Part shown: positions 25,619 through 59,873 of the stretch, piece by piece
Layout: every line of letters begins with the position of its first letter
Numbering within the stretch: the first letter of the stretch is position 1
NCBI RefSeq assembly: GCF_900129295.1
Contig: NZ_FQUU01000011.1
Location: 1 to 64,000 of the forward strand
Direction of reading: 5' to 3'
DNA: 64,000 bases
Origin: Flavisolibacter ginsengisoli DSM 18119
Lineage (GTDB): Bacteria; Bacteroidota; Bacteroidia; Chitinophagales; Chitinophagaceae
Notes under the pieces: model-generated
Told to the model about the DNA's origin: nothing
What the model saw: only the letters and a program-made list of their open reading frames with translations
Databases searched by the model: none
Made by a program: the position numbers and the translations under genes

Positions 25619-26221
25619 TCAGGCAACATGCTGTAGTAAAAACAAAGGCACCTGGTAATCATCAGGAAACGTTCCTTCAAAACTTACCTTCCAGTCATAA
25701 TCATCCATATGAAGTGCTAAGAATTCATTGTCTTCTTGCTGCAGGGGGGCTGTAACTATGAGCTCCAGCTTATTCTTTGATTTCTTTACCTTTTCTTCCT
25801 TTGGTTCATTGAGCCTTTCAGCCAGTTCCTGTTCAAAGGAAGCAAGCAATACATCAAACTGCTCCCTTGTAAGAGAGATCCGCTTTTCTTGCTCCAGGAA
25901 GGTATAAATGGCATTGAAAACATCTGCTTTTGACATGTCATGCTTCAGGCAGACTATGGCTATGGTTCTTACCTGTTTAAACAAATGCCTGAACCTTCTT
26001 TTTTGAGGCACAAAGCGGTAGATAATGGAACACATGATATTGCCCTCACCAAAGCGCCTGGCACTCTTCCTGCTTCCTTCAAAGGCAGGATCTTCCCGAA
26101 AGCGTTTTGCATCCACACCTGGAATCAGCCTTGCCAGGTAACCCCAGGCAATTGTTTTATAAAAGTTCAGGTTACCATCAACTGTTCCCTTAGCCTTCAC
26201 TGATCCTTTTTGCTTTGCCAT
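25619..26221 (-). CDS. uncharacterised 200-residue protein, paralogue 1
   Basis: Not assignable to a function. It begins MAKQKGSVKAKGTVDGNLNF and continues YK..GYLAR..GVDAKRF..DPAFEGSRKSA..FGEGNI. This is an N-terminal signature I know from uncharacterised Bacteroidota proteins (MAKQ..KGTIG..FYK..G.LAR..DAKR..DPAFQRTR). The middle is basic and helical (RFVPQKRRFRHLFKQVR), then comes a Lys/Glu linker (about 137-148) and a C-terminal beta/acidic part (about 150-200). There is no signal peptide, so it should be cytoplasmic. A same-length paralogue is at 59271-59873, about half identical. Both have 10-bp iterated repeats 60 bases upstream and the same hairpin nearby, which suggests autoregulation or a DNA-associated role (inference). 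Confidence 0.8.
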   Translation of the reverse strand: MAKQKGSVKAKGTVDGNLNFYKTIAWGYLARLIPGVDAKRFREDPAFEGSRKSARRFGEGNIMCSIIYRFVPQKRRFRHLFKQVRTIAIVCLKHDMSKADVFNAIYTFLEQEKRISLTREQFDVLLASFEQELAERLNEPKEEKVKKSKNKLELIVTAPLQQEDNEFLALHMDDYDWKVSFEGTFPDDYQVPLFLLQHVA

Positions 26222-26280
26222 ATAGAATTGATTTTATGGCTGCAAGTTTGAAAAAAGTATAAGTACATCAAAGCCCAGGT

Positions 26281-26314
26281 GCCGGAATTGCCGCTTTTTG
26301 CCGCTTTTTGCCGG
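26281..26314 (-). promoter_or_regulatory. 10-bp iterons upstream of paralogue 1
   Basis: Read on the minus strand: CGGCAAAAAG, CGGCAAAAAG, CGGCAATTC, then CGGC. The spacing is 10, 10 and 9 bases, ending 60 bases before the start codon. The same phased pattern lies at the same distance from paralogue 2. Helical phasing suggests repeated protein contacts on one DNA face. Confidence 0.65.
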
Positions 26315-26563: not shown

Positions 26564-26596
26564 ATAGATACTGCGTGGTGGTCACGCAGTATCTAT
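26564..26596. repeat. family C hairpin (ATAGATACTGCGTG arms), copy 1
   Basis: 14-base perfect arms (26564-26577 and 26583-26596) around a 5-base loop. The copy at 59012-59050 has identical arms. Flanking bases are also alike (GGAAGGGCGTTGATAG after the hairpin). There is no T-tract, so it is not a standard terminator. The rest of 26315-26859 holds no gene; 26369-26400 resembles the GTTGACAGGTTG-type simple repeats at 57242. Confidence 0.8.
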
Positions 26597-59011: not shown

Positions 59012-59050
59012 GGTATAGATACTGCGTGGTGATCACGCAGTATCTATACC
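59012..59050. repeat. family C hairpin (GGTATAGATACTGCGTG arms), copy 2
   Basis: 17-base perfect arms around the loop GTGAT. The inner 14 bases are identical to copy 1 at 26564-26596, and the following bases (GGTAGGGCTTTGATAG) are similar there too. It lies 221 bases upstream of paralogue 2. Confidence 0.85.
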
Positions 59051-59156: not shown

Positions 59157-59214
59157 CGGACAAAAGCGGACAAAACCGGTCAAATCGGCCAAAAGCAGCC
59201 AAATCGGCCATGGC
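59157..59214 (+). promoter_or_regulatory. 10-bp iterons upstream of paralogue 2
   Basis: CGGACAAAAG, CGGACAAAAC, CGGTCAAAT, CGGCCAAAAG, CAGCCAAAT, CGGCCATGG: spacing 10, 10, 9, 10, 9 bases, ending 56 bases before the start codon. The 10, 10, 9 order is the same as upstream of paralogue 1, and the following 55 bases up to the ATG are also alike. Confidence 0.7.
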
Positions 59215-59270
59215 GGCTTGGTGTTACTAAGTATTTTAGCAATCTTTACAGTCAATAAAACCAATATCAT

Positions 59271-59873
59271 ATGGCAAAGCAAGTGGGTCATGTAAAACTA
59301 ACAGGTACAGTATGTGGAGATATTAATTGTTATAAGGATGTGGACTGGGGTTTTTTGGTAAGAATGCTTCCGGGAGTGGATTCTAAGCGCTTCTGGAAGG
59401 ACCCTGCCTTTGAAGGCAGCAGGAGAAGCGCTGAAAGGTTTGCAATCGGTAATATTATGTCATCTATTATCTACCGGTTTGTACCATTAAAAAGAAGATA
59501 CCCAAGGCTGTTTACCCAGGTAAGAAGAATAGCCATTGCTTTTTTAAAGCAGGGAAGTGAAAAAAGGGATGTGTTTTCAGCCTTGTTTACCTTTCTTACA
59601 GAGCAAAAGCGTATTTCCCTTACCCGGGAGCAATTTGATTTACTCCTGTCTTCCTTTGAAGAGGAACTAAAAGCAAGGATACAAGAACAAAAGCCAGAAA
59701 AGGAAAAGAAGATGAAAAACAAGATGCATATTAAGGTAGAAGCTCCTTTGAGTGAAGAGGATATAGAATACTTTAAGCTTTATATGGATGATATAGAGTG
59801 GACCATAAAGTTTGAAGGGGACTTTCCGGAGGATTACAGGATCCCATTGTTTATGCTTAAGCATGCTGTTTAA
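59271..59873 (+). CDS. uncharacterised 200-residue protein, paralogue 2
   Basis: Same length and about half identical to the protein at 25619-26221. Shared blocks are MAKQxGxVK, KGTV-like, GVDxKRF, KDPAFEGSR, GNIMxSIIYRFVPxKRR, EQKRISLTREQFDxLLxSFE, and a C-terminal beta region with YMDD.EW. A Lys/Glu linker splits N- and C-terminal parts (about 135-148). No signal peptide or enzyme motif. Both copies sit behind iterons and the same hairpin, so the pair may be a duplicated regulatory unit. Function unknown. Confidence 0.82.
   Translation: MAKQVGHVKLTGTVCGDINCYKDVDWGFLVRMLPGVDSKRFWKDPAFEGSRRSAERFAIGNIMSSIIYRFVPLKRRYPRLFTQVRRIAIAFLKQGSEKRDVFSALFTFLTEQKRISLTREQFDLLLSSFEEELKARIQEQKPEKEKKMKNKMHIKVEAPLSEEDIEYFKLYMDDIEWTIKFEGDFPEDYRIPLFMLKHAV

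Follow-up and report, generated by a model that had tools for sequence, protein, structure and literature searches.

Genes of a dispersed, uncharacterised protein family in Flavisolibacter have probably been placed under the SOS repressor LexA, and the phased iterons in front of some of these genes would form an array for a second DNA-binding protein. We hold this reading, as a whole and on the strength of sequence comparisons, with moderate confidence. The predicted LexA operator, CTAA-N5-TTAG, is a stronger and better explained signal than the iterons to which an earlier note on this DNA had pointed. It stands upstream of all 28 main-clade family genes in a complete genome of the genus (G015) and of half of those tested in the genome analysed here (Flavisolibacter ginsengisoli DSM 18119, G000), and SOS control looks like a gain of this lineage.

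Two family genes preceded by phased arrays

The window, a stretch of 64,000 nucleotides from the start of one G000 contig, contains two copies of the family gene separated by 33 kb, whose products, P0001 (copy 1) and P0002 (copy 2), are 61% identical (Table 1). The range 25619..26314 given in the earlier note for copy 1 is correct for the gene and its iterons together, the gene alone being shorter. Phased iterons before copy 1, spaced as the note had stated, were borne out: the array ends 58 bases 5' of the ATG at 26221, and its chain score of 9 was reached in only one of 500 dinucleotide shuffles of the 300-bp upstream region. The array of copy 2 ends 57 bases 5' of its ATG and scored 21, a value reached in none of 500 such shuffles; the top score elsewhere in the window, both arrays excepted, was 7. 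The further claim that copy 2 shows the same pattern at the same distance holds fully for the geometry and approximately for the sequence, its units being of the type CGGnCAAA and those of copy 1 of the type CGGCAAAA. The note had overlooked the LexA-type palindrome of copy 2 and the perfect palindrome upstream of each copy (Table 1). The unusual feature is the phased array, whereas the single 10-mer CGGCAAAAAG is not special: with 17 matches in the genome versus 14 for the backwards pattern it is not rare, and only 3 of the 17 lie at family genes (two on C17, one on C9).

Table 1. Features of the two family loci in the window
Feature	Position	Strand	Description
Family gene, copy 1	25619..26221	-	200 aa (P0001), stop codon within range, open frame
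Iteron array, copy 1	26280..26313	-	Four CGGCA units, spacing 10, 10, 9: CGGCAAAAAG CGGCAAAAAG CGGCAATTC CGGCA
Promoter place of copy 1 matching, by eye, the LexA-type palindrome of copy 2	26249..26265	-	Without CTAA-N5-TTAG
Perfect palindrome GATACTGCGTG-N5-CACGCAGTATC	26567..26593	.	Repeat dispersed in the genome; lies 346 bp 5' of copy 1 start
Family gene, copy 2	59271..59873	+	200 aa (P0002), stop codon within range, open frame
Iteron array, copy 2	59157..59213	+	Six CGGnCAAA-type units, spacing 10, 10, 9, 10, 9: CGGACAAAAG CGGACAAAAC CGGTCAAAT CGGCCAAAAG CAGCCAAAT CGGCCATGG
Predicted LexA operator, copy 2	59225..59241	.	TACTAAGTATTTTAGCA (CTAA-N5-TTAG), motif from PMC8565304
Perfect palindrome GATACTGCGTG-N5-CACGCAGTATC	59018..59044	.	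227 bp 5' of copy 2 start

The family and its repeat-rich upstream regions

P0001 matched 24 places in its own genome, itself included: 15 at 60% identity or more (again with itself, and with one interrupted copy), five more full-length proteins at 33-38%, and fragments. With the wider profile A5 the count rose to 28 places on many contigs, and 24 of these have open frames. G015 holds 30 members with open frames, namely 28 main-clade and two other-clade intact copies, and 33 in all when interrupted ones are counted. Decayed copies occur as well (L031, L035, L023, L029/L032, L300 and L305, L-numbers denoting loci examined), and some of them keep arrays or boxes. The 28 intact main-clade copies of G015 are spaced more evenly than chance would give, with a minimum gap of 67.7 kb (P 4e-5 in one simulation, 6e-5 in another), less clearly so once the two intact other-clade copies are added (21.6 kb, P 0.035); for all 33 members the minimum gap is 8.5 kb (P 0.21), with low gap variation (P 0.009). 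This spacing test was post hoc, and we did not use it as evidence.

The N-terminal domain (A5) was present in 9 of 18 genomes of the genus and, at E ≤ 1e-6, in 82 of the 214 examined for the taxonomic family. Other large expansions were found in genomes G134, G193 and G239 of genus g111, each with at least 22 family matches; these genomes measure 8.4-8.8 Mb and gave 71-91 first-look candidates. Core-type orthologues of 251 aa are common in Bacteroidota, at least 586 of 597 candidate stretches being confirmed and the best 80 retained. We rejected a reading as a phage or plasmid gene: pattern-based scans (A1 or A2) confirmed no relative in viral contigs, none was found in phages, and the plasmid relatives came down to one record (Marivirga) of 72,556. 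We read copies 1 and 2 as members of a fast-evolving, dispersed, single-gene family of Bacteroidota.

The family remains uncharacterised, as the note had it, in that the members scanned gave no significant match in Pfam, NCBIfam, PADLOC or PDB sequences, and P0001 had one weak PHROG hit (E 5e-4) to an entry of unknown function. Its description as basic holds for the N-terminal 112 residues, with a pI of 9.5-10.2 in all 11 members computed; the whole proteins span 6.8-10.5. A structure model of P0001 built from 31 sequences (pLDDT 69, pTM 0.54) shows three N-terminal strands and a helix bundle, with residues 143-200 unreliable; fold comparison of this model returned no significant match and no trustworthy relative. 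The family product is most likely a basic nucleic-acid-associated protein.

Arrays like that of copy 2 are associated with the family in G000. The two-unit iteron pattern GGnCAAAAnCGGnCA, which copy 1's own array does not fit, had 30 matches in this genome versus 3 for the backwards pattern, and 27 of these immediately precede family genes, one truncated gene included. The remaining three form a single array at C6:22651, followed by promoter-like sequence with no family frame left. The spacing 10, 10, 9, 10, 9 is contained in 11 of 15 inspected arrays of this genome. The note had proposed checking the upstream regions of all family genes for CGGnCAAAA iterons; the association within the own genome stood up to this check, and arrays proved not to be universal in the family.

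Across genomes, 9-10-bp arrays in the last 200 bases, scored above the 97.5th percentile of controls, preceded 32 of 117 family genes versus 5 of 256 control genes. These counts are dependent, as promoters are shared by descent, and the loci sampled in other genomes are the best-scoring ones; the 117 upstreams omit L023, L029, L032, L063 (the L030 locus), L156, L158, L365, L388 and any upstream shorter than 300 bp, and include the truncated L031. By group, arrays were frequent in G000 (16/22), the mixed set L151-L170 (8/18) and G134/G193 (3/4), followed by G239 (2/15), G015 (1/28) and others (2/9), and none was seen in 12 family upstreams of G031 or 9 of G113. The units elsewhere have other sequences: CGGCACAAA in G013, AATGCCACGG in G193 and ACCTGTCATT in G239. 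Phased arrays thus recur beyond this lineage with other sequences, but not in every lineage.

Other periods were raised too. Arrays of 7-8 bp preceded 14 of 117 family genes (5 of 256 controls) and arrays of 11 bp 16 (6 controls), the latter reaching 24 versus 7 when 350 bp were considered. For 12-13 bp the counts were 1/117 and 4/256, and for 14-15 bp 9/117 and 7/256 (P 0.19), or 14 and 4 in 350 bp (P 0.054). In wider bands, periods of 6-8, 9-12, 17-20 and 21-23 bp were all raised upstream of the family, 9-12 bp most (43/117 versus 12/256). Since periods of 6-8, 11, 17-20 and 21-23 bp are over-represented as well, not all repetition here is iteron-like; family upstreams are repeat-rich in general, with the helical period strongest. 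Treating all tandem arrays as one thing was dropped, as 11-bp arrays further upstream also precede non-family genes; similar units before other genes (L408 and L410 in G000, L430 in G005) are the reason why we did not count them as family iterons. Such 11-bp arrays (TATGTAACGGC, ATGTCCCATAG and others) were seen at L408, L410, L430, L070, L306 and L307, before family and other genes alike.

A predicted LexA operator at family promoters

A palindrome located between array and gene is common to many promoters of the family. In G015, all 28 main-clade copies had CTAA-N5-TTAG in the 300 bp before the gene, versus 1 of 73 other genes; in G000, 11 of 22 copies had it, versus 0 of 64 other genes. Because the copies share promoter DNA by descent, the 28 occurrences are not 28 independent events. 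The extended pattern TRCTAAN5TTAGYA was found at 25 places in G000 and 32 in G015, its reversed form at 2 in each. Of the G015 places, 27 lie at the 28 main-clade genes, the 28th gene fitting the shorter core CTAA-N5-TTAG; one more belongs to a copy with a broken reading frame and another to a distant, interrupted member, so that the family accounts for 29 of 32. The rest belong to a dinB-type polymerase gene, an efflux gene and a place without a start within 260 bp. Three further G015 members (1315611, 3436209 and 3508113) are at none of these places. In G000, family members account for 14 of the 25 places, among them a remnant on C32 that matches weakly, and umuD/umuC for one. Among three loci missed by the first family profile, L068 has the box, and L064 and L066 (reread as L306 and L307) do not. 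The CTAA-N5-TTAG at L301 (G015:C1:242270) lies about 200 bp upstream of an apparent efflux membrane-fusion gene.

Aligning the 28 G015 promoters on the box gave a consensus of TTG, a gap of 20 bases and TAAATTTG, whose last base is also the first of the box; we take the TTG and TAAATTTG pair to be a Bacteroidota promoter. At copy 2, the corresponding -33/-7 elements could not be placed with confidence. A further element, TGTGnATAA, which resembles a DnaA box, begins 57 bp before the LexA box in 23 of the 28 copies (L111-L138) and 55 bp before it in four, and is absent from one; in either orientation, it was found within 300 bp of 1 of 73 control genes. It also stands 36 bp upstream of the box in two G000 copies of the MPKQ subgroup.

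Array and box are separate modules. Copy 2 has both, its CTAA-N5-TTAG being the only one in the whole window, and copy 1 belongs to the loci with an array and no box (L009, L010, L012-L016 and L031). The MPKQ subgroup (L024-L028) shows the reverse combination, with a box in three of five members and no 9-10-bp array. An intact box is missing from half of the G000 members tested, and copy 1 may have lost one.

CTAA-N5-TTAG is the published operator of the Bacteroidetes SOS repressor LexA, with an identical motif in Chitinophagaceae, the family to which Flavisolibacter belongs; in PMC8565304, whose main text does not contain the name Flavisolibacter, the P. actiniarum repressor bound this sequence in gel shifts and mitomycin C induced predicted genes. 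Matching regulators and targets occur in both genomes studied here. Each encodes an S24 protein of LexA-like layout (N-terminal HTH judged by eye) with two boxes 40 and 17 bp upstream (L321 in G000, L319 in G015). The same box precedes the SOS genes umuD/umuC in G000 and the dinB-type polymerase gene in G015, and the umuD-like gene of G015 (L312) has no intact box.

Outside these two genomes the box was found in 1 of 67 further sampled family upstreams (L162 in G005) and in none of 79 core orthologue upstreams, two of which carry GGA-N5-TCC. In G031, the LexA-like and umuD-like genes have CTAA boxes and 0 of 12 family genes do, indicating that SOS control is not a family trait. With the box present in G000 and G015 and nearly absent elsewhere, SOS control of the dispersed family looks like a gain in this genus, and it was not conserved across the relatives sampled. 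Two candidates for diverged LexA operators were dropped: TTCGTATATTCGTA in G046 more likely belongs to a conserved promoter, and TGAC-N4-GTCAT occurs in G031, whose LexA-like and umuD-like genes still have CTAA boxes.

In the mechanism that we propose, a LexA dimer on the copy 2 operator would sit in the promoter and keep the gene off, and DNA damage, by removing LexA, would induce many paralogues together. The iterons, phased at 9-10 bp, would serve a second DNA-binding protein as a cooperative array, on which several of its monomers may bind side by side along one helix face, next to RNA polymerase, and tune the same promoter. Box and array would act together at box-bearing copies; copy 1, which keeps an array and has no box, would be expected to respond only to the array protein.

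In published work, the SOS regulons of these bacteria are limited in size, with repair and replication genes making up most of them. Here, most predicted LexA sites of both genomes lie at one unstudied, lineage-expanded family, which would change the composition of the damage response in these bacteria and may mean that part of it consists of unstudied proteins. The operator would also give a first handle on the function of this widespread family. The family is also a natural example of how promoters evolve: within one set of paralogues, an SOS operator would have arisen in a single genus, is absent from some copies and is joined to phased arrays of changing sequence and constant spacing.

Alternative readings and known systems

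A possibility that we doubt but take seriously is that the copies are a selfish or mobile cassette of palindrome, array, promoter and gene, with LexA control and arrays serving its life cycle, damage-induced spread included. Whether a cassette has spread with the upstream palindrome is a separate question, compatible with LexA control and a protein-bound array. The number of open members in both genomes (24 and 30) and the existence of decayed copies would fit such spread. So would the borders of MPKQ homology, which ends about 200 bp upstream, at the palindrome, and no more than 11 bp after the stop in four of five copies, and the placement of the GCGTG-type palindromes, of which 11 of the 17 precede family genes by about 225-355 bp. 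Between G000 and G015, the regions flanking family copies have just two non-family neighbours in common (36% and 42% identical). However, MAKQ homology runs to -470 and +476 without a sharp common end, the other 6 of the 17 palindromes lie away from family genes (three inspected had no family remnant), no transposase-like domain was found in the members scanned, and relatives were absent from the viral contigs and phages and confined to that single plasmid record. G000 carries two types of perfect dispersed palindrome, 17 of the GCGTG type and 13 of the CCGTG type. At L080 and L078 (the C29 and C35 ends), identical sequence starts beside one palindrome half and contains a gene that by eye resembles an IS110-type transposase.

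The note had suggested that the family binds its own promoter or that a dedicated regulator does. We consider it unlikely that the family's basic N-terminal domain binds its own phased array, with array and protein changing together in each lineage, much as ParR binds an array at its own promoter in parC. The family is the only shared factor that we can name for the array, its N-terminal domain is basic, and phased 9-10-bp arrays recur at its promoters with other sequences; moreover, CGG-type pairs precede core orthologues at 12 of 42 picked loci, mostly in Chitinophagaceae, versus 21 of 730 background windows. Yet no known DNA-binding fold was recognised, and many members have no array, as in G015, G031 and G113. 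Nor does array type follow protein type. The 150 bases upstream of L011 and of the interrupted L023 are 93% identical and carry an unlike array, whereas the L023 protein is 72% identical to that of L011 and 91% identical to those of L018 and L022, which have the usual array. The 251-aa protein of L030, in turn, is alike in the N-terminal domain only and has the usual array. Arrays that are neither universal nor matched to protein type argue against a family that binds its own promoters, and near-identical upstreams before unlike proteins suggest that promoters also move. Promoter exchange and absent arrays thus speak against strict self-recognition, and we prefer an array read by a second protein.

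That the array has no binder at all, its helix-phased A-tracts bending the DNA or forming an UP-like element that strengthens the promoter, is improbable. Runs of three to five A do recur at 9-10-bp intervals immediately before the promoter, but in units gathered with the seed CGGCCAAAA the information content peaks at C, G, G, C and A (1.67-1.91 bits) and not in the A-run (0.44-1.13), which favours a protein site over bent DNA, and the G193 and G239 arrays have no A-tracts. Equally improbable is a palindrome bound by another repressor of the same type, leaving the family not damage-inducible: each genome encodes one more full-length S24 protein (L318 in G000, L316 in G015), which has no box, and CTAA-group regulators show paralogy in Weeksellaceae according to PMC8565304, but the same motif stands before umuDC in G000, dinB in G015 and the LexA-like gene itself. 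More speculative still is the idea that the family product is the array binder and that its loci, each a gene with a phased array, form a chromosome-wide network held by LexA until damage occurs. If true, a basic, array-forming protein made from dozens of sites would coat or mark the chromosome there, a new kind of SOS output.

Three known systems come close to the arrangement for which we argue, a family held by LexA with an array for a second protein. REP/RAYT systems combine dispersed palindromes with a gene family that encodes a Y1 (HUH) transposase domain. Like them, G000 has dispersed palindromes, many beside copies of one gene family; unlike them, the members scanned are without a transposase match, no Y1 (HUH) domain being found by Pfam in P0001, P0002, two other G000 members and 49 core orthologues. 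Type II plasmid partition relies on the centromere parC and on autoregulation by ParR. As at the family promoters, its direct repeats are short, follow one another at about a helical turn and lie next to a promoter, and cooperative binding is expected. Here, in contrast, the loci are chromosomal with many dispersed copies, the protein is not recognised as ribbon-helix-helix, and no ParM-like gene was seen among ten scanned neighbours of the two window copies (DUF5122, AHSA1, AraC-type, DinB superfamily, cupin, DUF7935, Fe-S, SecDF, MM-CoA mutase and DUF4142). The third system is the Bacteroidetes LexA SOS regulon of PMC8565304, with the same operator in the same host family, Chitinophagaceae, and, as here, an operator at the LexA-like gene, at umuDC (G000) and at dinB (G015). 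Regulons in Hymenobacteraceae, Sphingobacteriaceae and Chitinophagaceae were put there at 8.90 +/- 3.27 operons, whereas 29 of the 32 boxes in G015 fall to a single, unstudied family of paralogues.
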